From: a virus
DNA length: 45,360 bases
Reading direction: 5' to 3' (one strand)
Virus record (IMG/VR): IMGVR_UViG_3300028400_000011
Coordinates: 1-45,360 of that record
A program made the position numbers and the translations under genes. This document shows, piece by piece, positions 27,739 through 45,360 of the stretch; the first letter of the stretch is position 1; every line of letters begins with the position of its first letter. The notes under the pieces were generated by a model. The model was not told where the DNA came from, did no database searches, and worked only from the letters and a program-made list of their open reading frames with translations.

Positions 27739-27947
27739 TGGAAAAGAGAGTCTCTGTACTCAATATGGACGCGGTGAAGCTGATTAGCTTTCTGCGCCAA
27801 CTGGAAAAAGTGCATTTTCATGGGGAGCTGCATTTCAAGATCTACGATGGGAAAGTCAAGCAGGTAAAACGCCTTGAGAGTGTGAACCTGCACAAGCTCT
27901 GGCCAGAGACGGAGGAAGAGTTTGGATCCACAGGAGATACTGCTTGA
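27738..27947 (+). CDS. Small protein resembling DUF2292-type domains
   Basis: This 69-residue protein has a helix (DAVKLISFLRQLEKV), then FHGELHFKIYDGKVKQVKRL. It follows the pattern of DUF2292-like small proteins, where a helix leads into a Gly-containing beta hairpin ending in K-V-x-x-V. Its start overlaps the preceding stop (TGATG) and its end overlaps the portal start by 26 bp. The function is unknown for the family. Confidence 0.7.
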   Translation: MEKRVSVLNMDAVKLISFLRQLEKVHFHGELHFKIYDGKVKQVKRLESVNLHKLWPETEEEFGSTGDTA

Positions 27948-29889
27948 ATACGAAAAAGCTCGTGAGAATCGCACGACATGGATGAGTGAAGCCAATGTCG
28001 ATCACGAGTTCAAAAACTCTATTCAATACACTGAATCGGAGATCAAGCAGTTAAAAGAGCGTGGCCAGGCACCTGTTGTAGTAAACAGGATCCTGCCTCA
28101 GGTCAGTCACCAGGTCAACATGATTGTTTCCTACATGCCTGGCCCGACTGTGGTCCCTGCCTCCGGTGGTGACGAAGACAAGGCCGACCTCCATCGCCGC
28201 ATCCTCAATCACATCCTCTATCGCTCGAACTATCCTCGTGTAGTAAAACAGGTGGTCACTGACCAGGTTACCGATGGCGTAGGCTGGTTTTACGCCTTCG
28301 TAGACCGCAATCCCATTGATGGTCGCCCTGAGATCTTTGTTGGCTACATCCCCTGGTACAGAGTTTTCCCGGATCCCGAATCCATTCGTCCTGATATCTC
28401 CGATGCGGCCTATGTTTACGTTGCAAACTACATTTCCAGGGCAAGGGCGAAGGTACTTTTCCCGGAGTATGCTGATAGGATTGATGAGATTGCTTCGTCA
28501 ATCGAGGATGTTCCAACGGCATCTGGCTACAGCGAAGAGAATATCAAGCTCTGGAAGATTGTGACGGATGGGCAGAAAGACAATGTGCTCTATCTTGAGC
28601 GCTATTACCAGGAAAGGGAAAAACACTACGTCCTTACGTCTCTTGTGCCTGAGAAGCCGCTCACTGTTATCATGGACTCGCGGCAGTTCTCTGAGTTCAG
28701 GGAACAGTATGGCTCTGCCATTGATAACGAGGTCATGGTAACGGAAGCGAATCTTCCTGTGATCAAGCGCGAGGCTATTCTTGGCTACGACAGTGTTGCT
28801 AAGGATACGCTTTACACCTGGTTTGACAACTATCCGATTTATCCCGTTGTACCAGCCTGGTATGAGCATCTTGGCAATACAGAACCGATAGGTCTTGTTC
28901 GTTCGATCAGGGGCCAGCAGCAGCTTTTCAATAAGCTTAACATGATTATCGTTGCCCATGGTATTGCTACTGCTGGTGTCAGGCTCATGGGTCCAGAGAA
29001 CGCTGTGGACAAGGATGAAATCCAGGTAGAACTCTCGAAGCCCATCGGCTACATCAGTATCAAACCATTGCCTGACAAGCTTCTCAAGCCTGAGCCCCTC
29101 AACGTTAACCCACTTCCTCCTGCTGTTTTTGCTCTTCTTGAGGACATTAAGCGCGATTTCGAGTACACGGCTGGTTCTTCGTCCATGAGCCTTGGCGTTC
29201 CAGAGAAGGTGCCGAGGACTGGGATTGCTACGCTGGCTATGGAGGAGTGGGCCAGGCGTAGGATCGCACCCGTTATGCAGAACACGGCTGATGCTGTAGA
29301 GAGACTTGGCAGGGTGTTGATCCGGCTTGTTCAGAAGTATTACTCCGATTTTCAGGTTATCAGGATAGTGAATCCGCAGGAACCGGAAAAGATGGAAGAG
29401 ATCGCGGTGAACCTGCCGCTCTATGACAGTGTGTCTCAACGGGCCATTGAAACGATCAATGATGTAACCGTTGGTATCTACGATGTGAGGGTGGATGTCA
29501 ACAAATACACATTCTCCTCACGCATGGCTGAGCTTCAGTTCTACGCTCAGCTTTACCATGATGGATTGCTTGACGATATTGCGCTGATGCAAATGCTTCC
29601 AATCCCAAACAAGGATGAACTTATTAAGCGCAAGAGCTTGCTTGCTCAGCTTCAGGCCGCAATCAAAGAGATGGCTGAATATGCCAAGATGCTTGAGGAC
29701 AAAAACAAGATCCAGGAGAATCAGTTGATCATGACGCAACTGAGGAACAAGATTCTTGAGATCACCAGCCGTCTTGAGCGCCAGGAAGCTGAGAAAAGAC
29801 TGAGGGCTGAGAGAGAATTTTCTCTGGTCATGGATAATCTGAAGACAGCGGCAGAGGAAGCAAAGAGAGGTGGTAAAGGTGGCGAATAA
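27922..29889 (+). CDS. Portal protein (P22-type), TTG start
   Basis: This 655-residue protein lies directly after the terminase group and before scaffold and capsid. The N-terminal sequence (GQAPVVVNRILPQVSHQVN, then an LHRRILNHILYRSNYP helix and DGVGWFYAF) follows the P22-like portal family, which forms the dodecameric ring through which DNA passes. The C-terminal ~150 residues are a long charged helix as in portal barrels. The start is TTG 27922, 6 bp after GGAGGAAG; no ATG lies nearby in frame. An inefficient start codon could keep portal low relative to capsid. Confidence 0.88.
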   Translation: MDPQEILLEYEKARENRTTWMSEANVDHEFKNSIQYTESEIKQLKERGQAPVVVNRILPQVSHQVNMIVSYMPGPTVVPASGGDEDKADLHRRILNHILYRSNYPRVVKQVVTDQVTDGVGWFYAFVDRNPIDGRPEIFVGYIPWYRVFPDPESIRPDISDAAYVYVANYISRARAKVLFPEYADRIDEIASSIEDVPTASGYSEENIKLWKIVTDGQKDNVLYLERYYQEREKHYVLTSLVPEKPLTVIMDSRQFSEFREQYGSAIDNEVMVTEANLPVIKREAILGYDSVAKDTLYTWFDNYPIYPVVPAWYEHLGNTEPIGLVRSIRGQQQLFNKLNMIIVAHGIATAGVRLMGPENAVDKDEIQVELSKPIGYISIKPLPDKLLKPEPLNVNPLPPAVFALLEDIKRDFEYTAGSSSMSLGVPEKVPRTGIATLAMEEWARRRIAPVMQNTADAVERLGRVLIRLVQKYYSDFQVIRIVNPQEPEKMEEIAVNLPLYDSVSQRAIETINDVTVGIYDVRVDVNKYTFSSRMAELQFYAQLYHDGLLDDIALMQMLPIPNKDELIKRKSLLAQLQAAIKEMAEYAKMLEDKNKIQENQLIMTQLRNKILEITSRLERQEAEKRLRAEREFSLVMDNLKTAAEEAKRGGKGGE

Positions 29890-30097
29890 AGGATATTGGA
29901 TGCAGCAGGCTCGGCGCAGAATGGTGGTTAATGGAACGGTTGGTTCTTTTACTGCTTGGTGCAAGCGCCAGGGATACAAAGGGGTCACGGCAAGTTGCAT
30001 TTGTCGGGGGTTGAGATCGAAGAACAAAGCGATTGTCAAAAAGGCTACATTTGCAAAAGCTGCTTGGAAGACGAAAGGTAAGTCCGTACCTTGCTAG
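29879..30097 (+). CDS. Small basic phage protein with repeated-Lys C-terminus
   Basis: This 72-residue protein starts at GTG 29879 behind AGAGAGG, overlapping the portal end by 11 bp. The sequence WMQQARRRMVVNGTVGSFTA, then WC and ASCICRGL with a KKATFAKAAW end, matches a small protein common near structural genes of many phages (pattern KGTVGSFT...C...I..ATFA..). It is strongly basic and may bind DNA or the capsid interior. The function is unknown. Confidence 0.72.
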   Translation: MANKGYWMQQARRRMVVNGTVGSFTAWCKRQGYKGVTASCICRGLRSKNKAIVKKATFAKAAWKTKGKSVPC

Positions 30098-30106
30098 GAG
30101 GGTATC

Positions 30107-31120
30107 ATGCCAGAAGAAACGGTGAAAAGTCAGGTCGACGAGACCGCCGAGGGAACTCAAGAACAGCCGCTTGAGGGCGACGAGTTTATCCAGGGATCTG
30201 AGACTACGCTCGATCTTGCTGATCAGCTTCAGAAGGCGCTTCTTGGTGAAGTGCCAGAAGGGGTTATCGAGGCAGAAGAGGAACCCGCTGAACCAGAGGT
30301 GTCAACACCTGAGGATGAAGAAGTAGCAAAAGAGGCGGTTGAGCAGGCTGCTGAGGCTCAGGATGAGGAGTTCTGGACCGAAGAAGAGTTCGAGCAGGCC
30401 CTTGATGAGTATCTTGAGAAGGTCGAGGGTTCTGGTGAGATTCCAGAGGAATACCAGCAGGCCAAGCAGTTTGTAGACATGATTCAATCGAATCCGGAGA
30501 TGTATGCTGCGTTTCTGGATTCGCTCAAAAGCACGGTGGGTGGCAGGTCGGAACCTCAGGGCGCTCATGAGCAGCAGGAAGCTGTTCCGCGCCTTGAGAT
30601 TCCCGACGTACCGAAGCCTGAGGATTTCGATCCTACGGAAGCTTTTGATCCGAATACTCCGAGCGGGAGATGGGTCTATTCGCAAATCGCCAAACAGATT
30701 GCCGGATCCCTTTCTCCTGTTCTTGAGGAAGTAACAAAGAAGGTAACCGGAGTTGAGCAGTTCATCAACACCCTGCAACAGAGGGAGGTTCAGCAACAGC
30801 AGCAACAGCAGGTGCAGACGGTGCTGGCAGAGTTTTTTGGTCAGCACAAAGAGGCAGAACCGTATGCCGACGATTTCATTAAGTTCCTAACCGATCCGAA
30901 CGACATTACGCTTGAAGACATGTGGGAATTCTTCAAAATGAAGAATGGGATTGCAGTAGAAAAAGCGAAACAGGTGGCGCGTGAGGTAGTGAACAGAGAG
31001 CCGCCACAGGCACCGCCAGCATCTGCTGTTGGTGGTAGAGCTGGAAAAGCCCAGCCGAAGTCATTTGGTGACATGCTCACTGATTTCTTGATTGGGAATC
31101 AGCAGGTACTTGACTATTAG
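30107..31120 (+). CDS. Scaffold protein
   Basis: This 337-residue protein lies between portal and capsid with AGGAGG before the ATG. It is very acidic and Glu/Gln-rich in the first ~150 residues, then has helical parts and a Gln-rich stretch (QQREVQQQQQQQVQ). It ends with a basic, Pro/Ala-rich segment and an amphipathic end (SFGDMLTDFLIGNQQ), the region that usually binds the coat protein. Composition, position and size are typical of podovirus scaffolds that guide procapsid assembly and then leave. Confidence 0.85.
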   Translation: MPEETVKSQVDETAEGTQEQPLEGDEFIQGSETTLDLADQLQKALLGEVPEGVIEAEEEPAEPEVSTPEDEEVAKEAVEQAAEAQDEEFWTEEEFEQALDEYLEKVEGSGEIPEEYQQAKQFVDMIQSNPEMYAAFLDSLKSTVGGRSEPQGAHEQQEAVPRLEIPDVPKPEDFDPTEAFDPNTPSGRWVYSQIAKQIAGSLSPVLEEVTKKVTGVEQFINTLQQREVQQQQQQQVQTVLAEFFGQHKEAEPYADDFIKFLTDPNDITLEDMWEFFKMKNGIAVEKAKQVAREVVNREPPQAPPASAVGGRAGKAQPKSFGDMLTDFLIGNQQVLDY

Positions 31121-31135: not shown

Positions 31136-32416
31136 ATGGCATCGACCGGAATTCAGGCCCTGGGTGATCCAAATGCGAGTACTGTTCTCGCTACGGACCG
31201 GAGGGATCACTATCTAAGGCCGAATACTTTTAGTGAGCTCTACCCAAATGTTGCGCCTTTTTATACCTTTGTGTCGAAATTGCGCACTCTTGGTGGGAAT
31301 GAGCTCAAGGATGTAGACTTCAAGCTGTTTTATCACAAAAACATCGTTGTCGATAGTTTCCGTTTCTACATCAACGGCTCGACGGATGCGATTCCTGCGG
31401 CTGGTTCTGATGTGACGCCGAATATCGACGATGGCTCTGGTTCGGCTCCTGGTTTTGTTGTTCCGGGCCAGGTGGTTCGTGTTCGTACTTCTGCTGGAAC
31501 ACTTAAGGCCTACATGCGGGTTAAGAGCGTTGCGAGTAATGGTTTGAGTGCGACATTGACCACGATCTACCGCAGCGGCACTCCTTCCTTCGCTGATAAC
31601 GATGTCCTGGATATCGTTGGTACGGCTTATGGTGAGGGTTCTGCTGCACCGGATAGCTGGTACGATGATCTTTCCACCTTGTGGAACTCGGTTCAGACAT
31701 TCCGTACCAGCTTGAAGCTGACTGACCAGATGATCCGTGCGGTTCTGCGCGGTGGCAAAGAGATGCCGATTCAGATTCAGCGAAAGGCGATGGAGCACAA
31801 GATGAATATCGCCAGGGATTTCTACTTTGGCATGCGTCCCAATGGCGTGAGTGCTCCTTCTACTACCATTACTGACTCTGACGGCAACATTGTCACCCTG
31901 ACTCAGGGCATCATCAGTGCGATCAAGTATCTGAGCCTTACTGGTGCAAACTACTTCGTGGCGGATTCGGCCACGTATACGTGGGATGATTTCGTTGATG
32001 ACATGAAGCAGGTTGCCCAGTATGCCAATGCCAAACAGACGCTGTATGGCTTTGCCGGCTACGATGTGATTGCTTGGTTTGGCAAGGTTGGCTCTGGTAG
32101 TTCGTTCGCCGGTAACTCTGGATTCAATTTCCAGCTTGCACCGACAGTGCAGACGCGGTTTGGCTTCCAGGTGAAGCGTATTGAGCATCAGTTTGGTACG
32201 TTGAACCTGGTTCTTGACCCGTTGCTTCGCGGGCCGGATGCTGGATACATGATTATTGTGGACCCGGAGCATATTGGCCGCGCTCAGTGGGAGCCGCCAC
32301 GGTTCCGTCAGAACATTCAGGAGCGCAAGTATCTCTACACCTGGCACGAGTATGTCAGCATCGAAGGTTTGTGGTTTGACCAGATCGAGTCGCATGCTCT
32401 GTTCGAGTTGACGTAA
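31136..32416 (+). CDS. Major capsid protein (HK97-fold, SU10/DUF5309-like)
   Basis: This 426-residue protein has GGAGGTGAGCTCC before its ATG and sits directly after the scaffold. The N-terminal arm, the DVDFKLFYHKN strand, an inserted beta domain at about 80-170, the helix AMEHKMNIARDFYFG and the C-terminal P-domain strands (KRIEHQFGTLNLVLDPLL) fit the coat protein family of phage SU10-like and P22-like podoviruses. Product copies build the head; it should be the most expressed protein. A GC-rich inverted repeat follows the stop. Confidence 0.87.
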   Translation: MASTGIQALGDPNASTVLATDRRDHYLRPNTFSELYPNVAPFYTFVSKLRTLGGNELKDVDFKLFYHKNIVVDSFRFYINGSTDAIPAAGSDVTPNIDDGSGSAPGFVVPGQVVRVRTSAGTLKAYMRVKSVASNGLSATLTTIYRSGTPSFADNDVLDIVGTAYGEGSAAPDSWYDDLSTLWNSVQTFRTSLKLTDQMIRAVLRGGKEMPIQIQRKAMEHKMNIARDFYFGMRPNGVSAPSTTITDSDGNIVTLTQGIISAIKYLSLTGANYFVADSATYTWDDFVDDMKQVAQYANAKQTLYGFAGYDVIAWFGKVGSGSSFAGNSGFNFQLAPTVQTRFGFQVKRIEHQFGTLNLVLDPLLRGPDAGYMIIVDPEHIGRAQWEPPRFRQNIQERKYLYTWHEYVSIEGLWFDQIESHALFELT

Positions 32417-33500: not shown

Positions 33501-34109
33501 ATGACTGTAGCCGATATGGTGACACATATTCGTACTGTTGCTGCTCGCCATGGGGTCAAGGACGAGGTGCCTTTGTCTGAGGTTCTGATGGCAATCAATG
33601 ATGCAGCTTCCAGGGTAGCGGCGGCCGTGCCGATCAACATCAAGTCCACTACTCTGTCACCTACTGTAGCTGGCGGGAATGAGTATGATCTCCCCACAGA
33701 TCTTATTAAGATCCGGAGAGTGAAAATTTCTGATACGGGCCAGTATCTCAAGAGGCTGAACAAGTACGCTGGAACGGAGCTTTCTTATACGGCGATTGAT
33801 GAACTATCTGAGACGGTTTGGGAGCCAGTTGGCTCGAAGCTGTATTTGTGGGATTTCAGTCTTGATAGCGGCTATAAGCAGGCTGCTGATGTGGATGAGA
33901 TTGTTCTTGTTTACCAGGCTCTTCTTTCAGAGGTTACGGAAGATAGTATGAGTTCGTCTGTGTCAGGGAACAGGATTGCTGACTCTGCCATTGAGAATCT
34001 TGCGATATCGTTCATTGTTTCGGCCAATGGAGACCCACTTGCTGCGGCCAATTATGAGACCAGGGCAAGGTATTTAATCCTTGATATCCCAACCGATGCA
34101 AGCATTTAG
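33501..34109 (+). CDS. Second neck/adaptor-like protein (tail tube A-like)
   Basis: This 202-residue protein has TTAGGAGATGCG before the ATG. An N-terminal helix (MVTHIRTVAARHGVK) is followed by a LSEVLMAINDAASRVAA helix, then the motif NEYDLPTDLIKIRRVKI, characteristic of tail-tubular-A type adaptors in T7-like and related podoviruses, and a C-terminal helix pair. It would join portal or first adaptor to the tail nozzle. Confidence 0.72.
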   Translation: MTVADMVTHIRTVAARHGVKDEVPLSEVLMAINDAASRVAAAVPINIKSTTLSPTVAGGNEYDLPTDLIKIRRVKISDTGQYLKRLNKYAGTELSYTAIDELSETVWEPVGSKLYLWDFSLDSGYKQAADVDEIVLVYQALLSEVTEDSMSSSVSGNRIADSAIENLAISFIVSANGDPLAAANYETRARYLILDIPTDASI

Positions 34110-34119
34110 GAGGTATGAG

Positions 34120-34566
34120 ATGAAACGGATTGGAATTGTACTGGCTATCGTGTTGTCCCTTGTTCTTGTTTCCTTTGCGGCTGACACGGGCTGGAAGGGG
34201 ATTTTTGGAACGGATGACTCTCCTTCCTACACGACGACTTTTACCGGAACTTCTACCTCCAGGACGTTGAAGTTTGTTCCATCAAGGAACTACAACGGCG
34301 ATGCCAGTTTGGTTGTCTACGCTGTTCTCAATAGCGGCTCCATGCCGACTGTGACAGTGAGTTACAGGAAGTACTACGGCGTGGACGATGAGAACTTGCA
34401 GTATGGTCCTTGGAACACGCTTGGTACATTCAGCTCGGCTTCTACAAGTACGGAGTTTGTGGTTAGTAAGGACACGAATTGGGGCTACTGTGACGGAGTT
34501 CAGTTCAAGTTCACTGCTAGTGGCACGTTCAATATCACGCTTCATGCTGCATTCAGAATTCGCTAG
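34120..34566 (+). CDS. Secreted beta-rich protein with Sec signal peptide
   Basis: This 148-residue protein starts at ATG 34120 behind TAGGAGGTATGAG. It begins with MKR and a hydrophobic core (IGIVLAIVLSLVLVSFA), with likely cleavage before ADTG, a textbook Sec signal peptide. The mature part is beta-rich and Ser/Thr-rich, in the style of a small beta-sandwich. Structural phage proteins normally lack such signals, so this protein may be exported by the infected cell. It lies between neck and fibre-like genes. The family is unknown. Confidence 0.8.
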   Translation: MKRIGIVLAIVLSLVLVSFAADTGWKGIFGTDDSPSYTTTFTGTSTSRTLKFVPSRNYNGDASLVVYAVLNSGSMPTVTVSYRKYYGVDDENLQYGPWNTLGTFSSASTSTEFVVSKDTNWGYCDGVQFKFTASGTFNITLHAAFRIR

Positions 34567-34575
34567 GAGGTTTTG

Positions 34576-36552
34576 ATGATGCGGCAACTGAAACTTATTT
34601 TTGTTCTTCTGATTTTCCCGGCTTTGCTCTATGGTCAGACCGGCTGGAGTACTGGTGGTAGTGGTGCTTTTGCCGACTCAGCGCGGGCTGCCTCAATTGC
34701 AGACAGTGCCAAGCATGCGGCCGCTTGGGTGCAGGATTCAAGCTGGGTTAAGATGGGGACGGATGTTATTGTCCAGCACACGGCTGGCAAGGATACGATT
34801 GGCTTCTGGTCAAACCTGAAGGTGAGACCGTGGAAGAAAGCCGCTCAGTGTGATTCTGTTAGTCAGCAGTATGCCGTTATCGCTGACGCATCTCAATCTG
34901 GTCTCGATCCTGGCTACTCTGATTATGCTGTTTTCCAGACAGTTGTTTTCGATTCTCTACCGGCATACGACGGGAATCATGCCATTCTGTGGTCAAAGGG
35001 CTACGATGCGACTAACATGATTCAATTGTCGCAGCAAAAGGATGCAACTGGGTATAAGCTTGTGTTGTTCATGCGGCAAGGTGGTACCGCTGTCTCTAAA
35101 GATTTTTACTTTGATGCGCAAACGAGCAAGTCATACAACATTCTTAGCCTATATGACCGAGATGGCAATGAGTACCTTTATGTCGATGGCGAGAGTCTCG
35201 GCTCGACGTCTATTTCTGCCATTAGCGGCGACGTGGACAATAGCGTTGGATTTTATATTGGTACGAACTCATACGGTAGCGTCATCCTGCGCGGCAAGGT
35301 GCTCGTGACTCGCGTGTTCAACTTCGGCACGGACGGTGCTCCTTCTGACCCAGATGCCTTTGCTCGCGCTCTCGCCCGCAGGCCCCTGGCGACAATGGCA
35401 GAGCTGGGGTATCCGGAATATGAGGATGCGGATTGGACAAATGTAAAAAGTAATCCTGGGATTGAAAACGGGACGACTGGCTATAATCTGTACAACGGTG
35501 CTACGATAGCGCAAGACGCCACAAACGTGCATGGCGGAAGTTACGCGCTACTCGCTAAGGATGCCGGGGCTACAGACTTCTACGGCACCTACAGTAATTC
35601 TTTCACAACAACCTTAGGAGCACACGTTTACGAGCTTTCGTTCTTGGTGTATCATGACGGCGCATCTAATGCTGATTTCAGGGCGCAATATTGGGATGCT
35701 GTTCATGGGGCGGTATCAACGACAACTTCTGTAGCGCCGAGTACGTGGACGCAACTGCGCCTCGTTTTTGAGGTACAGAGTGATGCTGTGTCGGCCAGCA
35801 AGTATGTCTACGCCATCTGTACGTCGAGCGTCCCGGACTCGTTTTGGGTAGACGACTTTGACGTTCATGAAGTGGGTGAGGTTGCTCGCTGGGATTTCAA
35901 CGATGCCAGTTCCTCAACTGTCTTTGCCGACAAGACAAGCAACGACAACGATCTAACGCCCTACAGCTCTGGCGCTACAACAACGGCTGGGAACCTGCAG
36001 GAGACAGCTTGGTTGAACCATGGGTTTTTCGCCAAAGCTGGCATTGACACGGTTGTTGCAGATACAACTTTTTCATGGAACGTCCTGACGCGACGGGTTT
36101 ATTTCGAAAATGACGATGTTCCAGGTGCTGGTACGACAGATCCGTTGCTCTACGCAAGTGGAGGGGAAATCTACGCGCACGACGCCAGTGGCAACAACAC
36201 TGTGATTTCTCCTCACATGGATGGAGACTGGGTTTACAATAGCTGGAATGCACAAACTGGACTCAGGACATTCATCAACCTGTTTGATCTTGTCAAGGTG
36301 CTGGAGAAGCTGACAGGTAGGAAGCTGATGTACCAGGACACGGTAGCAGTGCAGATCCCAGTTGAGCAGGCTGTTGACACAGTGTATGTCACGGTTGTCG
36401 ATACAATAAAGCATCTGACGTCAAGGGTGCGCGTTCTCAGGCCGCGGAAGCATGTGATCAACATCAACGGCAAATGGTATCGGATCGATGCGGCCAAAAT
36501 CAGGAAGCCGCCTGCTGCGTATCTCGAAGCGATCGGAGTTAAGCCGTGGTAG
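34576..36552 (+). CDS. Large secreted LamG-like surface or fibre protein with signal peptide
   Basis: This 659-residue protein starts at ATG 34576, 5 bp after AGGAGG. The N-terminal LKLIFVLLIFPALLYGQ is a clear signal peptide with a YGQ-type end. Then come a concanavalin/LamG-like domain (about 110-250, with YLYVDGESLGSTSI and GFYIGTNSYGS), a carbohydrate-binding-module-like region (about 290-430, GGSYALLA...FWVDDFDVHEVGE) and a C-terminal part with VININGKWYRID. Such domains bind sugars. Without the signal it would be called a tail fibre; with it, secretion or surface display is possible. Confidence 0.78.
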   Translation: MMRQLKLIFVLLIFPALLYGQTGWSTGGSGAFADSARAASIADSAKHAAAWVQDSSWVKMGTDVIVQHTAGKDTIGFWSNLKVRPWKKAAQCDSVSQQYAVIADASQSGLDPGYSDYAVFQTVVFDSLPAYDGNHAILWSKGYDATNMIQLSQQKDATGYKLVLFMRQGGTAVSKDFYFDAQTSKSYNILSLYDRDGNEYLYVDGESLGSTSISAISGDVDNSVGFYIGTNSYGSVILRGKVLVTRVFNFGTDGAPSDPDAFARALARRPLATMAELGYPEYEDADWTNVKSNPGIENGTTGYNLYNGATIAQDATNVHGGSYALLAKDAGATDFYGTYSNSFTTTLGAHVYELSFLVYHDGASNADFRAQYWDAVHGAVSTTTSVAPSTWTQLRLVFEVQSDAVSASKYVYAICTSSVPDSFWVDDFDVHEVGEVARWDFNDASSSTVFADKTSNDNDLTPYSSGATTTAGNLQETAWLNHGFFAKAGIDTVVADTTFSWNVLTRRVYFENDDVPGAGTTDPLLYASGGEIYAHDASGNNTVISPHMDGDWVYNSWNAQTGLRTFINLFDLVKVLEKLTGRKLMYQDTVAVQIPVEQAVDTVYVTVVDTIKHLTSRVRVLRPRKHVININGKWYRIDAAKIRKPPAAYLEAIGVKPW

Positions 36553-36764
36553 AAGAGAAGCTAATCGACGAACTAAAGAAGCTTGTCGAAAGATGGCGTG
36601 ATCTTGTAGAGCGGGAAATTCCAGATGCTTACAGGGACCGTGGCCTTGAGAGGAAATATCTGAATCTCGATAACTGGGCAGGTGGTGTAAGTGACTGTGC
36701 AGATGAGCTTGAAGAGCTAATCGAGGAATACAATGGGAAAGAAGAAAGATCCGACAGAGATTAA
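36546..36764 (+). CDS. Small helical protein (GTG start)
   Basis: This 72-residue acidic, mostly helical protein starts at GTG 36546 (GGAG upstream), overlapping the end of the previous gene by 7 bp and the next gene by 32 bp. The heptad-like ELIDELKKLVERWRDLVE pattern suggests a coiled coil. The family is unknown. Confidence 0.65.
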   Translation: MVEEKLIDELKKLVERWRDLVEREIPDAYRDRGLERKYLNLDNWAGGVSDCADELEELIEEYNGKEERSDRD

Positions 36765-37029
36765 AACTGGGTACGTTTTGACGCAATATGATGCCGAGGC
36801 GATCAAACGAGCCATAAAGGCGCTGGAACAATATCTTGAGCAGATAGGTGAACCGACGATTGAGCAAGAAGAGCTAGTTGACAGAAGAATGGAAGCTGTT
36901 GATGCCATGTTTGATCTACAGGATATTGCCGAGTGTGTTGAGCAGCAGATTGGCAAACAAAAGTTTGCGGATGAGCAGAATTGGGATGATGCTAAGCGGC
37001 CAATGATAGCCAAGCCAGGAGGCCGTTGA
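36733..37029 (+). CDS. Small helical hypothetical protein
   Basis: This 98-residue protein has GAGGAATACA before the ATG. It is helical and charged (EAIKRAIKALEQYLEQIGE, then DAMFDLQDIAECVEQQ), with a short Gly-rich end. It overlaps its neighbours on both sides. Its place between a surface protein and the lysis-type genes gives no clear role. Confidence 0.68.
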   Translation: MGKKKDPTEIKTGYVLTQYDAEAIKRAIKALEQYLEQIGEPTIEQEELVDRRMEAVDAMFDLQDIAECVEQQIGKQKFADEQNWDDAKRPMIAKPGGR

Positions 37030-37430
37030 TGGTAAACATGCGTAAAGTCTGGTGGGTACTAATTCCTCTCCTGTTTTTGACGTTATTGATCTATGCCGTT
37101 GTTGGTCACTGTGGGGAGACGGACGAGGCAAAACTGTGCGAGCAGCGTGGCCATATTTGGCGTGCTGTAATGATCTACGGTGTATATACTGAGCCATATT
37201 ACGTCGATACGGATTCTACTACACTTTTGATTATTCCGCATGCGCCAGTTAGGCGTGTCTGTATGCGCTGCGGGAAAGCAGAGAATTACACAGCCAAGCC
37301 GGACACGATAGTAATTTGGAGAATCGGAGATGGCAAAAAAGATTTTGATCTTTCTTTCGCTTTGCCTGCTTTTGGTTATTCCTACAGTTACGCGAGCACA
37401 GGCCATTGGCAAGTGGCGCACAGCCAATGA
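37029..37430 (+). CDS. Membrane-anchored protein with C-x4-GH / CxxC metal-site pattern
   Basis: This 133-residue protein starts at ATG 37029 behind AGGAGG. The N-terminal hydrophobic helix (VWWVLIPLLFLTLLIYAVVG) may anchor it or serve as a signal. The outside part has CEQRGHIW and, about 45 residues later, CMRCGK, a spaced metal-binding pattern seen in small phage proteins. Its last ~33 codons overlap the next gene's signal peptide by 101 bp, so the true C-terminus may be shorter. The function is unknown. Confidence 0.6.
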   Translation: MVNMRKVWWVLIPLLFLTLLIYAVVGHCGETDEAKLCEQRGHIWRAVMIYGVYTEPYYVDTDSTTLLIIPHAPVRRVCMRCGKAENYTAKPDTIVIWRIGDGKKDFDLSFALPAFGYSYSYASTGHWQVAHSQ

Positions 37431-37761
37431 TACATGGACTGGCGATGATAAGTGGGCTCACTGTATGGGAAGCTACTTCCTGTGTAGCCAGCTTGACAAC
37501 ACGATGCGGCTGGATCATGCTATTTTGCTGACGTGGCTTGCAGGTTTGGTATGGGAAGTAAAAGATGCTTACATCCCGTATGAGAAAGTGGGTTATTTTG
37601 GTGGAGATGGATTCAGTAGAAGAGATCTTGTTGCGGACTATGTAGGCACTTTTTCCTACGTGTTTTTGAACTATGTTGTATTCCATCATGACAAAGACAA
37701 GGGGGTTAGTATTGTACCTGTTGAAGATGGCGCCGTACTTACACTTTCCTTGGAGTGGTGA
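37330..37761 (+). CDS. YfiM/DUF2279-like protein with signal peptide
   Basis: This 143-residue protein has GGAGAATCGGAG before the ATG. Its N-terminal signal peptide (KILIFLSLCLLLVIPTVTRA) is followed by a pattern like YfiM/DUF2279-type envelope proteins: DKWAHCMGSYFLCSQL, hydrophobic helices (HAILLTWLAGLVWEVKDAY) and SRRDLVADYVGTFSYVFLNY, with Asp/His/Glu at conserved-looking places. These proteins sit in the envelope and their function is unknown. Finding one in a phage lysis neighbourhood is unusual and may relate to envelope disruption or exclusion. Confidence 0.65.
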   Translation: MAKKILIFLSLCLLLVIPTVTRAQAIGKWRTANDTWTGDDKWAHCMGSYFLCSQLDNTMRLDHAILLTWLAGLVWEVKDAYIPYEKVGYFGGDGFSRRDLVADYVGTFSYVFLNYVVFHHDKDKGVSIVPVEDGAVLTLSLEW

Positions 37762-37763
37762 GA

Positions 37764-37997
37764 ATGAATGGAAATGGCAAGAACTGGATCATAGCTCTCA
37801 TCATGCTGATTGTGGCCTCTCTCACATTCCTTGCCGGGACTTACACTGATCTTGGCAAGAACAAGCAGCGGATTGCCACAAATGAGAGGGACATTAGAGC
37901 TATACAGGAAGCGCTTAGAGATAACACAAGGATTCTTCTCGATATCAAGGATAGGCTTGCGAGAATTGAAACTAAGCTGGAAGATCAGGGGAAGTGA
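37764..37997 (+). CDS. Membrane-anchored coiled-coil protein (spanin-like)
   Basis: This 77-residue protein starts at ATG 37764 (GGAG upstream). One N-terminal membrane helix (about 9-27, IIALIMLIVASLTFLAGTY) is followed by a long charged coiled coil (NKQRIATNERDIRAIQEALR). This is the layout of inner-membrane spanins and some holin partners. The lysis neighbours (holin-like, endolysin) support this, but no outer-membrane lipoprotein partner is seen, so the call is tentative. Confidence 0.6.
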   Translation: MNGNGKNWIIALIMLIVASLTFLAGTYTDLGKNKQRIATNERDIRAIQEALRDNTRILLDIKDRLARIETKLEDQGK

Positions 37998-38260
37998 AAC
38001 GTACAGAATCGCTTGATGCTGCAAAAGAGAAACTGGCAGAAGCTGAGAAGCTTGCAAGGCTTCTCCATCTTTTTATTCGGCACCATCTTGATGAAATGCT
38101 CCAGTACGGCGATGTAGCCATTGAGAAGTATGCGGATAGATGGTACATGGATTGGAAAGAGATGTCGGATTATGATCAGACCTACTTTATTGGTTGGGCA
38201 TTGAGAATCCAGGGAATGATGCAATATGAAGCTTCTAGAGAAGCTGAAGAAGGTGCCTAA
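37994..38260 (+). CDS. Hypothetical helical protein
   Basis: This 88-residue protein starts at GTG 37994 (GGGG upstream) and overlaps the previous gene by 4 bp and the next by 35 bp. It is helical (DAAKEKLAEAEKLARLLHLF) with an aromatic-rich middle (YADRWYMDWKEMSDYDQTYF). It may partner the spanin- or holin-like proteins around it. The family is unknown. Confidence 0.65.
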   Translation: MKRTESLDAAKEKLAEAEKLARLLHLFIRHHLDEMLQYGDVAIEKYADRWYMDWKEMSDYDQTYFIGWALRIQGMMQYEASREAEEGA

Positions 38261-38456
38261 GACAGCTACTGGCCTTTTACTTGTTTTTGCTGGCTATGCG
38301 GTGAAAGCAAAGGTTCAGCCGATTGGGGAGGCGCTTATCTATGTGGGCACGTTTCTTGCTGGACTCGGCGGGGCCCACAAGGCTATGAAAAAAGTCAAGG
38401 GTATGGACCCGTTCGAGGGCGAGAAGGAGATTGCAAGAGCAGTTGGGTTGAAGTAG
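38226..38456 (+). CDS. Holin-like small membrane protein
   Basis: This 76-residue protein has two hydrophobic helices (about 14-30, TATGLLLVFAGYAVKAK, and about 36-52, ALIYVGTFLAGLGGAH), a short positively charged N-terminus and a charged tail. This is the size and topology of class II holins, placed just before the endolysin. Lesion formation would let the lysin reach the wall. The evidence is topology and location only. Confidence 0.65.
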   Translation: MKLLEKLKKVPKTATGLLLVFAGYAVKAKVQPIGEALIYVGTFLAGLGGAHKAMKKVKGMDPFEGEKEIARAVGLK

Positions 38457-38489
38457 GTTCTGATCTAAAGTCAAGGCGAGTTTAGAGAT

Positions 38490-38858
38490 ATGCCTAAAGA
38501 GAAACTGAGCAAGATGGATAAAAGGGCTATCTTTCTTGAGATGATAGCCGACCTCATCCATTTTGCCAAAGAGAATGGGATCCGGCTTATCTGTTTCTCT
38601 TTTCACAGAACGGAGAAGCAGCAGAAGATGCTCTATGAGTACGGCAAGAGTAAGGTCAAACATAGCAAGCACCAGGACTGGCTTGCGATGGATCTTGCTA
38701 TACTGGATGACAATGACGAGATTGTCTGGGATAGAAACGAGGATTACGAGCTTTTGGGGAGCTACTGGAAACATTTAGGTGACGTGTATGGAGTCCATGC
38801 CCGTTGGGGTGGCGACTGGAAGAGTTTGAATGACATCTATCACGTGGAAGTTGACTGA
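38490..38858 (+). CDS. Endolysin, M15-family peptidase (L-Ala-D-Glu type)
   Basis: This 122-residue protein has the zinc-peptidase residues of the M15 family: FHR near residue 38-40, H61 in SKHQDWLAMDL, D68 and H118 in YHVEVD, with the WGGDW segment between. Phage members cut the L-alanyl-D-glutamate link of peptidoglycan stem peptides. It has no signal peptide, so it depends on a holin, and a holin-like gene lies just before it. Its stop overlaps the spike gene start (TGATG). Confidence 0.87.
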   Translation: MPKEKLSKMDKRAIFLEMIADLIHFAKENGIRLICFSFHRTEKQQKMLYEYGKSKVKHSKHQDWLAMDLAILDDNDEIVWDRNEDYELLGSYWKHLGDVYGVHARWGGDWKSLNDIYHVEVD

Positions 38859-41230
38859 TGTGGAAGCGCCTGCTTACATACCTCGTACTTTTCATTCCTG
38901 TTTTTGCCCATGCCGGGACCGATAGGGTCCATGACTGGTGGGGACTTTCCAAGCGACAGATCCTGCAAAAGATCAAAGGTGTTCATGGTACTGATGTAGA
39001 TGATCCATTTTACGCTCTTTTCCAATGGGCTCAGGATATCGATGAGAGTTATCCTGGCACTGGGATCTATTATGTAAGCAACTTCAATAGTATCCAGGCA
39101 GCCATTGATAGTGCTCATGCTCATGGTGGTGGCAAGGTTGTTCTGGAATGTGATACCGTTACTGTCACCAGTTCGATTGTGCTCTACAGTAACATCTGGC
39201 TAAGTGGGGTTGGGCCCTGCAGTGTGATTAAGACAGAGAAGTCAAGCACGTTTGACTTGTCAGCCATCAAGATAGATGGCGGTTCGAACAATGTATTTGT
39301 GTCTGATCTTAAAATTGAGCCAGATACAACTTCTGTGTATGCCACAGAGTATGATCATGCTGTAAGAGTCGACACGGCTTCCAATGTAAGGATTTTTCGC
39401 GTTGTTGTACCGCAATGTGTTGGAGATGGTGTCTATATAAGAGACTCAGACTACATCTCTGTAACGAACTGCTACTTCTCCGGGCAAGACATTTCTTCCC
39501 CATATGATCCACCATGTCCTAGAAATGGCATCAGTGTTGTTGGCGGCAATGACATTGTAATCTATGGCAACACATTCTACGGTGCTTTTGATCCGGGCGC
39601 CATTGATATCGAGCCAAATGCTGGACAGATTGTCAAGAGGGTCATTGTAGCCAATAACACGATCAAGGGCATTGATCTAACGCATCTCTCAAATGGCGTT
39701 AGTATCTATGCAAATGCTGATTCTGCTAATTCGCTTGTACGGGATGTGCTCATCTATGGTAATGTGATGAGCAGAGTCTATGGCAGGGCTATAAACATCT
39801 ACGATTATTATTCGAACGCGTACAATGTATCTGTTGTAGGCAACAGCATTGACAGTTGTGGCCTTGGTGCTTCCCCGTCTTCTGCTGTTTTTGTTAGGGG
39901 TGCTCCAAAGGCCTTGAACTTGTCAGGCAACACAATAACAAACGGGACAAGAGGCCCTGCGATTTACATCTACGAGACGAATTGGAAAGCCATTGATGGC
40001 GCGTTGGTATCTGACAATGTACTGGACTCTGTGCGATACGGAGTCATGATTTACAGGGATGCAACAAGGCCATCTCCAAGACTTATCAGGGTCCATGACA
40101 ATACAATAAGAAACACTGTTTATGATGGCATTAATGTTCAGAATACAGATGGGCCGATCTTCCTGTACGGTAACACAATAACAGGAGCGGGGAGATATGG
40201 TATAAGCGTGTCAGATGCTGACTCTGTTTATTCGTATGGTAATGCTGTATTCTATTCTTCATCGGAAGATTACAGGCCTGCTGGAACCATAGGCGATAAT
40301 ATTGTTTTTAACTACAATCTCGGTAACGGCGGAACAAGATACTCTAACACTGTTGCCGATATGAAGGCCCAGCAGGACACGATGAAGCTCTCGTTGAGGG
40401 GGCAACACGATAGTAAGGCATTCGCGATTACATCTGACGACAGTGATAGCTTGTTGTTTGTCGTGAACGGCTATGGAGTCGTCAAGACATACAACAGGGC
40501 TGGTGTGAGTTCGTTTGCCGGGCGCTTAACGCAGTGGTGGTTTGCGGATGTTCACGCACCACAGATGGAATGGTATGTGAACAAAGATACGCTCATTCTG
40601 TATGGCAACGACACGTATGGATGGGCTGGCTGGCCATATGTGAAGTCAGGATTCTTCTATGGTAGGTTTGGCCTTGGTGTTTATCCAGGCATAAAGATCT
40701 ACCTCGATGATGAGTGGGATGCCACATCTTCGACGACAAAAGATAGCTACATCTGGTACAACACATCTACGAGTCAGGTTGAAATCGTTGATGATGGCGT
40801 GACTGTATTCCCAACATCTAGTAGTATTAGTGGGACTGCACTGGATCAGACGCTGAGCCTTGGGTCTTACGTCCCATATCTTGGTACTACTAACGGCGTG
40901 TACTTGCAAATCCCTGCTGGGGGCACAGCCGATGTTAGATTGCCCGCGGTTAATAGAGTACACAATACAACTGTGAAGCTGGACACTGTTTGGGTAAGAG
41001 TAACATACAACGGTATTGCGACTGGGTCTGTAGACAGCATCAATGTTTGGTCTATCAGCCCGGCTGCTGGTGCTACATGGCTTGGCCATGCTCTTAGTGT
41101 TGGTGAGGGTACAGTTGCCATTGATACTGGCGACTATGCCATGCCAGAAAACTACACATTGTCTATTAGAGCTTATGACTCAGACACAAACTGGATGTTG
41201 AGAAGTGCGAGACTAAAATACATCTGGTGA
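38858..41230 (+). CDS. Right-handed beta-helix spike protein with signal peptide
   Basis: This 790-residue protein starts with a signal peptide (RLLTYLVLFIPVFAHA, cut before GTDR). Residues about 70-100 carry the pectate-lyase-3 entry (FNSIQAAIDSAHAHGGGKVV). Then follow many repeating short strands with N-x-I/V, G-N-x-I turns (about 120-490) typical of right-handed parallel beta-helices in spikes that bind or cleave polysaccharide. The C-terminal ~250 residues are beta-rich with a jelly-roll feel. A secreted spike is odd because virions assemble in the cytoplasm; it may be an exported glycan-degrading enzyme or may be assembled in an unusual way. Confidence 0.82.
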   Translation: MWKRLLTYLVLFIPVFAHAGTDRVHDWWGLSKRQILQKIKGVHGTDVDDPFYALFQWAQDIDESYPGTGIYYVSNFNSIQAAIDSAHAHGGGKVVLECDTVTVTSSIVLYSNIWLSGVGPCSVIKTEKSSTFDLSAIKIDGGSNNVFVSDLKIEPDTTSVYATEYDHAVRVDTASNVRIFRVVVPQCVGDGVYIRDSDYISVTNCYFSGQDISSPYDPPCPRNGISVVGGNDIVIYGNTFYGAFDPGAIDIEPNAGQIVKRVIVANNTIKGIDLTHLSNGVSIYANADSANSLVRDVLIYGNVMSRVYGRAINIYDYYSNAYNVSVVGNSIDSCGLGASPSSAVFVRGAPKALNLSGNTITNGTRGPAIYIYETNWKAIDGALVSDNVLDSVRYGVMIYRDATRPSPRLIRVHDNTIRNTVYDGINVQNTDGPIFLYGNTITGAGRYGISVSDADSVYSYGNAVFYSSSEDYRPAGTIGDNIVFNYNLGNGGTRYSNTVADMKAQQDTMKLSLRGQHDSKAFAITSDDSDSLLFVVNGYGVVKTYNRAGVSSFAGRLTQWWFADVHAPQMEWYVNKDTLILYGNDTYGWAGWPYVKSGFFYGRFGLGVYPGIKIYLDDEWDATSSTTKDSYIWYNTSTSQVEIVDDGVTVFPTSSSISGTALDQTLSLGSYVPYLGTTNGVYLQIPAGGTADVRLPAVNRVHNTTVKLDTVWVRVTYNGIATGSVDSINVWSISPAAGATWLGHALSVGEGTVAIDTGDYAMPENYTLSIRAYDSDTNWMLRSARLKYIW

Positions 41231-41478
41231 TGGATCTCATTGTCTATGTGACAATTTTGATTGTCTCCTTCTGTGACGGCATAAGAGACGGGAACGTTGC
41301 GAGGCGTGCAGCCTGGCTGCCTTGGCACATAGTGAAGTGGATTGATTTTTACTCGCCAATCGTTCTGCTTATGATTTGTGTTGGTTTTACCGTGCCTGAG
41401 GTTATTATATTGGCGCTCGCTTCGTGGGCATTGTGGAAGATCGGTTACAGCATGAGGTTGCCAAGTGCAGATTCTTGA
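41230..41478 (+). CDS. Small two-helix membrane protein
   Basis: This 82-residue protein starts at ATG 41230, sharing a base with the previous stop (TGATG). It has hydrophobic helices at about 3-14 (LIVYVTILIVSF) and about 42-70 (SPIVLLMICVGFTVPEVIILAL), with a Trp-rich loop between them. Its end overlaps the nozzle gene. It may be an antiholin, a second holin or a membrane accessory. No family is recognised. Confidence 0.65.
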   Translation: MDLIVYVTILIVSFCDGIRDGNVARRAAWLPWHIVKWIDFYSPIVLLMICVGFTVPEVIILALASWALWKIGYSMRLPSADS

Positions 41479-43402
41479 CATAAAACATCCGGCAAGAGGG
41501 CTGATGAGCAACATCAACCCTGAGATTGCGCAGGCTGACTTTGCTGTCAGGCTACAGCAGCTTGTTCCGGATGGGGGTACGCTCAAGCGTTATGAGGAGC
41601 TTGCCCCTCTGAACAACTCTATTGCTGCGCCAGTGAACCTCGCTGGGGCTTTCTTTGACAGGGATGACAACTGGATCCCCTGGGCGGTCTACGGATCCAC
41701 ACTCTACCGTGGTTCGTGGGCTTCTTCTACCAGGACAATAACATGGACAAACATGGGAAGTATCGGCATTAGCCCGACTTCTTACTTGGCTTTCAATGGC
41801 GCTGTGCGTTTCTCAGATGGTACGTACAGCAAGATTCTGATCAACATCCCCGCCGTTACACGATTCGGCGGGCAAGCTCTCACGAGTGGCTGGAAGATTC
41901 TCGACACCAAGCTTTCATCCCCTGTTGTTGAAAATGCTTCTCTACCGCCTTCTGGTGGGATTGCATTTCAGGTTTCTGAGATCACTGATTCTGACACCTA
42001 TTTCCAGGAAGGTGACAAAGTAGAGTTTGGGTTCACTTACCATCGTACTGATGGGGTGAGCTATCTAAGCAGATCGCTTGCCACGACAACCATTAGTGCG
42101 AATGGGAAAAGCTTGTCTCTTAATCTCCATGCCGATGGGAACGTCGATGATAGAGTCGTCTGGATTGGTGTCTGGATCAAGGTGAATGACGGGGTATGGC
42201 AACTGTGGAGGAAGATCCATCGGTCGGATAATGTAGTTGATGACAGTAACTCGGCAAGAGCCTGGAGCTGGGATACTATCAATAACAAGGGCGATATCAA
42301 CGGCATGGTTATTGACGGTTCCCCTCTCACGGATGAATACACCGCTCTTACTGGATACTCAGATGATGACATTAATACCTACGATGCTACTGGCATTCTC
42401 GTTGGCACTGAGGTCTATCCATATGTTCCTTGGGGCGTTGCAATTCCTGCTGGTGGAAGGGCAATCTATGCTGGTGTTACAGTAGATGGCGAGCTTAGGA
42501 ATGACCGGATCTACGTGAGCTATGCCAACCAACCCGACATTGTTCCGGAAACAAACTACTTTGACATCGGCATTGACGATGGTGATTCCATTGTTGCGCT
42601 TGCTTATGTCCCAGGAAGATTGTACGTTTTTAAGACAAACAACATCTATGTCATCAGCGCAGCTTCTTACGATCCAGTTGGCTGGCGGGTTGTAAGTCGG
42701 ATCAAGGGCCTTGGAGTTGATGACTACCGCAAGATCATCACGAGGGCTGATCAGGTCTTTTTCGCCAACAGTTCCGGTGTGTTTTTGCTCTATGGAGATC
42801 AGCTCAAACGTATTGATCTTGCCTGGGCGGACAAGTACGAGCAGTGGGTTCCTGATCCTGTTCTTGGAATCTACGAAGAGAATGGCGATCTTCTTGTTGG
42901 GCAGAGTGCTGGCTATAGTTACTTCTTTGCCATTGCACTCACATCAAGAACAGGCAGAGAGCCATTAAGTGCAGTCCAGCTTTTTGGGCCGGGCGGGACT
43001 ATTGATGACGCGTATTGGCTCCCAGGCCCCGATGGGAATGCCTACTTCATGTTTATCAACAGTAGTGCTGGCGACTCTACGGTCTACTCTTTTTCATCTG
43101 GTGCGACGAAGAGCATTGAATGGGAAACACCTTCTCTGGATCTTGGCAGGGCTTATGTTAGGGGAGTAAGGCTTGTTGGTAGTAAGCTCGGCGGTCTTGA
43201 CCTGAAAGTTAGACTTGATGGGGTGATCAATGCGAGTATGTCAACAACGCTTGATTCCTCGCTTGACAAAACAGCTTTTGTGAGGTTTGCAGGGAAGGGA
43301 AGAAGAGTTGCAATTTACTTGAGCGGATCTGCAGATCAGGATTTTGAACTGGAGAAAGCTGAGTTATGGATCGAGCCACTGCCGAGAGAATTGCCCGATT
43401 AG
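41465..43402 (+). CDS. Tail nozzle/hub protein (beta-propeller-like)
   Basis: This 645-residue protein starts at GTG 41465 behind GAGG. The second half has the hallmarks of podovirus nozzle or stabilisation proteins (T7 gp12-type): DRIYVSYANQPDIVPETNYF, GDSIVALAYVPGRLYVFK, NNIYVIS and QVFFANSSGVFLLYGDQLKR, repeated blade-like strands that form a propeller at the tail tip. No signal peptide is present, unlike the genes before it. It would be bound by the second adaptor and carry the spike. Confidence 0.78.
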   Translation: MQILDIKHPARGLMSNINPEIAQADFAVRLQQLVPDGGTLKRYEELAPLNNSIAAPVNLAGAFFDRDDNWIPWAVYGSTLYRGSWASSTRTITWTNMGSIGISPTSYLAFNGAVRFSDGTYSKILINIPAVTRFGGQALTSGWKILDTKLSSPVVENASLPPSGGIAFQVSEITDSDTYFQEGDKVEFGFTYHRTDGVSYLSRSLATTTISANGKSLSLNLHADGNVDDRVVWIGVWIKVNDGVWQLWRKIHRSDNVVDDSNSARAWSWDTINNKGDINGMVIDGSPLTDEYTALTGYSDDDINTYDATGILVGTEVYPYVPWGVAIPAGGRAIYAGVTVDGELRNDRIYVSYANQPDIVPETNYFDIGIDDGDSIVALAYVPGRLYVFKTNNIYVISAASYDPVGWRVVSRIKGLGVDDYRKIITRADQVFFANSSGVFLLYGDQLKRIDLAWADKYEQWVPDPVLGIYEENGDLLVGQSAGYSYFFAIALTSRTGREPLSAVQLFGPGGTIDDAYWLPGPDGNAYFMFINSSAGDSTVYSFSSGATKSIEWETPSLDLGRAYVRGVRLVGSKLGGLDLKVRLDGVINASMSTTLDSSLDKTAFVRFAGKGRRVAIYLSGSADQDFELEKAELWIEPLPRELPD

Positions 43403-44787: not shown

Positions 44788-45360
44788 ATGGCATACGATC
44801 CTTTACTTTCGCACACACTTGCACAGCTTGGCGTTGGCCTGAGTCACGCTGGTGAAGCTATTGCCAATGCCATTACTGCCAAGGGCGAGTATCAAACCAG
44901 GGGGCTTGAGGCGCAACTTGCGGCTAACTTGCAGAGAGAAGCAATGGGCTTACAGAAGTATTTGGCCCAGCTTGATGATGCTCGCAAGCGCAAGGAGATT
45001 GACAATCGCAAAGCTGCCTTTGATGCGTACATGGCGTTCAGAGAAAAGTATGCCAAAGAGGCGATGAAACTACTCCAGGCCATGAACAGTGGGGATAATG
45101 CGCAAGCACAGCTTAGCGGTACGATTATGAACGTCCTGTCGAATGCGATCAAGAAGATGGAAGATGCCAGGGATCCAAAGACTGCATTTGAACGACTGAA
45201 GGCTATTGCTGACTACGCTGCATCGAAAGAAAATGCCGAGGAAATTGTCTACAACAGAAAGACCAAACCTATCCCGGAGAGCCCGCCCGGAGCTATTGGC
45301 GGGAGTGGCGGAGAAACTGACATGCCATTCTATTCAAAGGCAGCTCAGTGGGCTAAGAGA
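44788..45360 (+). CDS. Internal virion-like protein, N-terminal part (continues at window start)
   Basis: This gene starts at ATG 44788, preceded by GGGAGG. Its coding frame continues without a break into base 2 of the window, giving 306 residues in all. The N-terminal part has hydrophobic Gly/Ala helices (LLSHTLAQLGVGLSHAGEAI), long Gln/Ala/Lys helices and a Pro/Gly linker (PIPESPPGAIGGSGGE) just at the junction. The last copy of the overlap lacks one A at 45355-45356, which would shift the frame; the left copy keeps it open. The ejection role is inferred from context. Confidence 0.75.
   Translation, partial: MAYDPLLSHTLAQLGVGLSHAGEAIANAITAKGEYQTRGLEAQLAANLQREAMGLQKYLAQLDDARKRKEIDNRKAAFDAYMAFREKYAKEAMKLLQAMNSGDNAQAQLSGTIMNVLSNAIKKMEDARDPKTAFERLKAIADYAASKENAEEIVYNRKTKPIPESPPGAIGGSGGETDMPFYSKAAQWAKR
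45231..45360. repeat. Terminal repeat, right copy
   Basis: Matches 1-131 base for base except for one missing A at 45355-45356. It marks genome closure. The homopolymer length difference also gives a hint of the error type to expect elsewhere in this assembly. Confidence 0.93.

Follow-up and report, generated by a model that had tools for sequence, protein, structure and literature searches.

Sec signal peptides on candidate receptor-binding proteins of a short-tailed phage, with a precedent in Cellulophaga phages

The virus record IMGVR_UViG_3300028400_000011 (IMG/VR; 45,360 bases, one strand), the whole of which was analysed and is here called the window, carries a tail-region cassette in which genes 34120, 34573, 37330 and 38858, named by the position of their first base, begin with predicted canonical Sec type I signal peptides. 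The sole spike- or fibre-like proteins of the record, 34573 and 38858, are both signal-bearing. Tailed-phage assembly is taught as cytoplasmic until lysis. Our main new result is a precedent for such proteins: signal-bearing tail proteins of Cellulophaga phages, which are marine flavobacterial phages, are recorded as virion proteins. The mechanism that we attach to this precedent is a proposal only. On balance we favour the reading that the window cassette holds receptor-binding equipment made as Sec-exported precursors, which would join the particles in the periplasm or at lysis. More tentatively, a class of tailed phages, with members among the flavobacterial phages and one or more short-tailed phages unrelated to them, may send its receptor-binding fibres and spikes out by way of the host Sec pathway, the last assembly of the infectious particle then taking place beyond the cytoplasm, either in the periplasm or on lysis.

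Signal peptides were called with a home-made scorer based on n-region charge, the apolar core, the -3/-1 rule and the absence of apolar continuation, and 106 annotated E. coli K-12 genes served as its controls (26 secreted, 59 cytosolic and 21 inner-membrane). Secreted controls scored 4.4-7.6, the cytosolic maximum was 5.26, and 1 of the 21 inner-membrane controls came out over 6.0 (6.19). The five open reading frames (ORFs) for which a sequence-only reading of this DNA had proposed signal peptides are all present where it placed them, and for the four that it called outright this scorer confirms the signal:

34120..34566, + strand: signal-bearing 148-amino-acid protein, possible small tail or decoration protein, AGGAGG 5' of its ATG; score 6.84, MKRIGIVLAIVLSLVLVSFA followed by ADTG
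34120..34179, + strand: Sec signal peptide of 34120, predicted cleavage between VSFA and ADTG
34573..36552, + strand: signal-bearing 659-amino-acid protein, fibre-like candidate receptor-binding protein with a CBM_4_9 match; score 6.03, MMRQLKLIFVLLIFPALLYG followed by QTGW
34576..34635, + strand: Sec signal peptide of 34573/34576, predicted cleavage between LLYG and QTGW
37330..37761, + strand: signal-bearing 143-amino-acid DUF2279/YfiM-like envelope protein, no lipobox; score 7.40, ...PTVTRAQA followed by IGKW
38858..41230, + strand: signal-bearing 790-amino-acid right-handed beta-helix protein, tail-spike candidate; score 7.26, MWKRLLTYLVLFIPVFAHA followed by GTDR
38858..38914, + strand: Sec signal peptide of 38858, predicted cleavage between AHA and GTDR

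These four scores lie within the secreted-control range, over every cytosolic control, and over or near the top inner-membrane value. Shuffling the first 40 residues gave P from <0.0002 to 0.018 per protein, with 34573 the weakest (0.018), and 0.8% of 6,129 six-frame ORFs reached 6.0. Each of the four has an n-region net charge of +2, an apolar core of 13-18 residues and a -3/-1 site (SFA before A, LYG before Q, AQA before I or TRA before Q, and AHA before G, in gene order), and the lipobox cysteine is absent; the LYG site of 34573, with L at -3, is the least typical. The start codons of the signal ORFs mostly have good ribosome-binding sites, and 34573 probably starts at the ATG at 34576, which has AGGAGG ahead of it. 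Portal, scaffold, adaptor, putative nozzle, a 2,832-amino-acid ORF and the endolysin gave no signal score, and the capsid protein scored 3.18. We regard export of the signal-bearing proteins as well supported by these features. The fifth ORF, 37026/37029, for which a signal had been called possible, scored 5.98; its 20-residue apolar run would also fit a membrane anchor, so the two are not separable.

The two large proteins had been described as LamG-like and beta-helix. The beta-helix is borne out in 38858 by matches to Pfam Beta_helix (E 3.2e-19) and to the tail spike family PHROG 7458 (E 2.6e-9), but 34573 gave no LamG match; it matches the carbohydrate-binding family CBM_4_9 of Pfam (E 1.2e-5, 26.1 bits, barely over the cut-off of 25.9). 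In its right-handed beta-helix and tail-spike PHROG match 38858 is like P22-type tailspikes. The P22 spike, however, lacks a signal peptide and binds the head through its N-terminal domain; 38858 is signal-bearing and gave no sequence match to solved structures. Residues 20-130 of 38858, considered for a known N-terminal virion-attachment domain, had no family match, and an AlphaFold2 model of the protein made without an alignment (pLDDT 39.8) was too poor for use. Searches of NCBIfam, including the type IX sorting domain, gave no match for 34120 or 34573 and a sub-threshold galacturonidase only for 38858. Neither a signal-free fibre or spike gene nor a Peptidase S74 chaperone was found in the window record. 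The mature part of 34120 is predicted to form one jelly-roll/beta-sandwich domain (AlphaFold2, pLDDT 73, pTM 0.70). Its fold matches (Foldseek/VIA) are generic jelly-rolls, including capsid proteins, together with unrelated domains at similar Z, and a function drawn from them was rejected because generic jelly-rolls assign none. Separately, the C-terminal part of 34573 carries the motif GEIYAHDASGN..SPH..EKLTG (36169-36345), which we take to be like an element that recurs at the C-terminus of tail proteins from environmental phages; no relative came out of a strict scan.

Homologues of the window signal proteins were found neither in about 50,700 phage records nor in IMG/VR pattern scans, so we sought the same arrangement in other phages. 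The window has at least two distal-tail signal genes near lysis genes, with 34120, 34573 and 38858 placed around the endolysin gene 38490, and we searched for this arrangement in Cellulophaga phage records that have labels based on tandem mass spectrometry (MS/MS). In phi10:1 the last tail genes, gp091-095, encode proteins with signal-like N-termini. Four of these, gp091-094, bear the label 'structural protein, experimental MS/MS', and no signal was seen on the remaining structural genes of phi10:1 that were examined. Signal-like N-termini are likewise found on gp085-087 of phi18:3 and gp25-26 of phi39:1, annotated as virion proteins by direct MS/MS. The phi39:1 gp26 protein is a pectate lyase with a CBM_4_9 match, and gp25 has an apolar segment broken by a glutamate that the scorer rejected, its signal being called by eye. 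Across these three phages the MS/MS-based annotation as virion protein covers nine signal-bearing proteins. Between three and five signal-bearing distal-tail genes also make up cassettes in phi13:2, phi19:3, phi46:3 and Ingeline, and the phages concerned belong to the Assiduviridae (phi10:1), the Pachyviridae (phi18:3, phi13:2, phi19:3, phi46:3) and the Duneviridae (Ingeline), with phi39:1 in addition. Like the window, the Cellulophaga phages have Sec signals on a run of large genes at the tail end, close to the lysis genes, with pectate-lyase and CBM_4_9 proteins among the products, and none on the remaining structural genes that were examined; unlike it, they come from flavobacterial phages, they alone have MS/MS evidence, and their proteins have no sequence homology to those of the window.

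The signals of these phages appear to be maintained. Between phi10:1 and phi18:3 the 20-codon signal of gp093 shows 6 synonymous and 0 non-synonymous codon changes, from which we read the signal as constrained; the flavophage signals are, on this evidence, not accidents. A module of the signal plus the next ~100 residues is retained, and different C-terminal parts are exchanged behind it. Thus gp080 of phi46:3 matches gp093 of phi10:1 at 21/21 signal positions and at 133/585 positions only of the C-terminus, and gp081 of phi46:3 carries the gp093 C-terminus (636/657) on a different, gp094-type signal module. Over their ~600-residue enzyme part, phi13:2 gp087 and phi39:1 gp26 share 66% identity with the last part of phiST gp030, a protein that has no signal. 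It is therefore the N-terminal module, and not the enzyme, that the signal accompanies. Receptor-binding proteins are usually built with a conserved N-terminus and a variable C-terminus. The phi46:3 genes gp080 and gp081 are neighbours (locus L097, 3356-8124) and make up a natural domain swap. An IMG/VR scan for the phi10:1 gp093 signal module returned known isolates and one further contig only.

Signals on such proteins had been called unexpected. This view suits most phages, and the fibre or spike genes of JC1, Pam5, Kuura and CRP-810 have none, but it does not suit the flavobacterial phages studied here. Of Ingeline and Nekkels, Bartlau et al. remark in one sentence, with no mechanism, that the proteins with lyase domains are 'also carrying signaling peptides' (PMC8776804). 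A search of the full-text literature, with most subscription journals outside its reach, returned no paper in which tailed phages were proposed to export their receptor-binding proteins.

In the mechanism we propose, 34120, 34573 and 38858 would pass through SecYEG via their type I signal peptides and then be cleaved, a step that the sequence strongly indicates. The mature spike and fibre proteins would fold in the periplasm, apart from the particles filling in the cytoplasm. After rupture of the envelope by the holin-like protein, the M15 endolysin and the spanin-like protein, the particles would meet the waiting spikes, which would dock on the exposed tail, a step with precedent elsewhere. 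P22 tailspikes are able to join finished particles in vitro as the final assembly step, which makes docking at a late stage physically plausible. MS/MS places the Cellulophaga counterparts, according to their records, among the virion proteins, so a protein can apparently be both exported and built into the virion. As a possible gain, exported proteins that bind or degrade glycans could in addition remove or hide receptors of the dying cell. The addition of spikes outside the inner membrane, one of several explanations listed in the sequence-only reading, thus receives real support from the MS/MS-annotated Cellulophaga proteins and would extend to the window phage by analogy.

Several points weigh on the other side. 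Virion membership of the window signal proteins is argued from analogy and position, and signal cleavage is predicted, both in the window and in the Cellulophaga phages. The Cellulophaga MS/MS labels come from database annotation, and co-purification with particles is possible for secreted proteins. Comparison by phmmer of the window proteins with the loci of phi10:1, phi13:2, phi18:3, phi19:3, phi46:3, phi39:1 and Ingeline gave no match at E 0.01, and no signal was found on the large tail proteins of phi14:2, phi38:1 and phiST, phages of the same host genus as those with the cassettes. Although 34120, 34573 and 38858 have 9 cysteines in 1,597 residues (6 of them in 38858) versus 4 in 6,171 for thirteen core virion proteins (P 2e-4), the rate in the signal proteins is that of the ordinary non-structural proteins of the window (6.6 per 1,000), so the difference may reflect a low-cysteine core and not disulphides. 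The portal, scaffold, capsid and putative nozzle proteins and the 2,832-amino-acid ORF (899-9397, 27922-31120, 31136-32416, 41465-43402) have zero cysteines in 4,895 residues, in contrast to the remainder of the genome.

The main rival explanation, which takes in the exported glycan-degrading or decoy proteins and the surface display that the sequence-only reading also listed, has the proteins exported but never on the particle. They would be a set of glycanases or lectins that breaks down capsule or slime ahead of lysis, hides receptors to prevent superinfection, or keeps progeny from adhering to debris. It accepts the signals as real, suits the carbohydrate-binding and beta-helix domains and the position of the genes next to the lysis cassette, and can point to known tail-region phage envelope proteins with signals, such as lambda Lom (PMC12309495). 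Yet it would leave the phage without a recognisable receptor-binding protein though the record looks complete, and the flavophage counterparts are recorded as virion proteins; we think it unlikely, if a serious contender. The usual cytoplasmic assembly would be kept if the apolar N-termini were no working signals and stayed uncleaved, or if an internal start gave a second, cytosolic form. Alternative starts do exist in 34573, though those seen all precede the apolar segment; the N-termini, while non-homologous, all conform to the cleavage rule, change in the flavophage gp093 signal is synonymous only, and an uncleaved apolar N-terminus on a soluble trimer would be unlikely, all of which makes this improbable in our view.

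Recent capture of host genes for secreted proteins, with the signals as relics without a role, was another of the explanations listed in the sequence-only reading. Bacteria do have secreted pectate lyases that carry signals, and two of the 'phage' records matched in our search, both fecal, resemble bacterial polysaccharide-use loci. However, in codon use and GC content the signal genes of the window are like the phage's other genes, with a deviation within that of other phage genes of like length, 34120, 34573 and 38858 have no homologue in phage records, and the flavophage signals are conserved and reused, as part of a phage N-terminal module, under different C-terminal domains, so that we find capture scarcely likely. 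That the signals are an artefact of prediction, through chance apolar N-termini or wrong start codons, is suggested by the use of a home-made scorer and by the weak showing of 34573 under shuffling, but four canonical signals in one cassette, mostly in good start context and with none in the core virion genes tested, make it highly implausible.

If Sec-exported receptor-binding proteins do join the particles late, the last assembly step would take place outside the inner membrane, with folding and disulphide formation under periplasmic rules. Sister phages in one lysate could then swap spikes (phenotypic mixing), and spikes set free could cover the surface of the host or strip it. The absence of signals has been taken as support for phage origin (PMC6199706), and screens that treat signal-bearing proteins as non-phage could miss real receptor-binding proteins. 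Cultured phages such as phi10:1 and phi18:3 make the question directly testable.

The gene order between the adaptor gene 33501 and the putative nozzle gene 41465 is 34120, 34573, small ORFs, the lysis cassette (37026, 37330, 37755, 38226 and the M15 endolysin gene 38490) and 38858. The remaining features are:

31136..32416, + strand: major capsid protein, SU10-type, no signal (Pfam PF17236 SU10_MCP, E 1.9e-18)
33501..34109, + strand: adaptor protein, SU10-type, no signal, upstream border of the cassette (Pfam PF24175 SU10_adaptor, E 2.2e-10)
37026..37430, + strand: small protein with an N-terminal apolar segment, start possibly 37029 or 37035
37755..37997, + strand: membrane anchor and coiled coil, spanin/holin-like (weak PHROG matches to Rz-like spanin/holin)
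38226..38456, + strand: small membrane protein, possible holin, from sequence and position only, no informative family match
38490..38858, + strand: M15-type endolysin, no signal (Pfam Peptidase_M15_4, E 2e-5; PHROG 465 endolysin, E 7e-17)
41465..43402, + strand: putative nozzle/tail tube protein by position and size only, no signal, downstream border of the cassette

The start codon of 38858 shares one base with the stop codon of the endolysin gene (TGATG), so the spike candidate is probably co-translated with the lysis genes. We count 37330 as a lysis-cassette member whose signal is ordinary; its family matches are PHROG 26616 'lipoprotein' (E 1e-4) and weak hits to YfiM and DUF2279. The envelope-directed ORFs 37026-37430 and 37330-37761 overlap by 101 bases in different frames and are followed by the anchor/coiled-coil ORF 37755, possibly an unusual spanin arrangement. 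The neighbouring nozzle, noted earlier as having no signal, indeed scores nothing, but its name comes from position: no sequence or profile match was found for 41465.

The first ~126 bases of the record recur at 45231-45356 as a direct terminal repeat, with a few stray bases at the very end, so the record is probably a complete genome, circular or terminally redundant, of ~45.2 kb. A terminase gene, a P22/BcepIL02-type portal (PHROG 156, E 8e-82) and the SU10-type capsid and adaptor proteins together identify the window phage, from sequence comparison, as a short-tailed phage of an unclassified lineage. By capsid and terminase its closest isolates are Caulobacter phage Kuura and Roseobacter phage CRP-810, at ~24% identity. 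The window phage shares capsid and adaptor families and short-tailed gene order with SU10-type phages; in Kuura and CRP-810, unlike the window phage, the fibre genes and the rest of the large tail genes are signal-free. Close relatives were not found in single-protein IMG/VR scans with the portal, 41465, the 38858 spike, 34573 and its C-terminal motif, nor was there a match in tblastn of phage records with 41465, the 38858 spike, 34573, 34120 and the adaptor, in profile comparison of the JC1 and Pam5 head-closure and adaptor proteins with the window proteins, or in a terminase search of bacterial genomes. A Shine-Dalgarno-like sequence precedes 21/29 of the window starts checked versus 2/19 in Cellulophaga phage phi10:1, which argues against a flavobacterial host for the window phage.

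Use of the host Sec system by phages is known from SP/SAR (signal peptide and signal-arrest-release) endolysins, such as Lys44 of fOg44, which have been reviewed (PMC6116005), and from lambda Lom (PMC12309495); these use Sec as predicted here but are lysis or membrane proteins, not receptor-binding ones. A portal-profile scan yielded 80 distant loci, and among their 476 large ORFs no signal was found on a clear fibre gene; nine scored over 6.0, several of them on the opposite strand and probably false calls, and one a TAXI-like binding protein. That gene (locus L064, 13476-14414) encodes a signal-bearing TAXI-like solute-binding protein downstream of a distant portal relative and is a possible auxiliary uptake gene. 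The two fecal records (L098 and L099; MT836880 and MT838944) are unverified 'Bacteriophage sp.' entries with a SusD-like lipoprotein and secreted pectate lyases, resembling polysaccharide-utilisation DNA. OmpA-family phage proteins with signal-like N-termini are present in CRP-810 (L112, 11261-12016, near a lysozyme gene) and phi14:2 (L088, 283-1278). Pseudanabaena phage Pam5 has two small signal-bearing proteins (L002, 17837-18304 and 18313-18642) after its tail spike gene and shortly before the endolysin gene.

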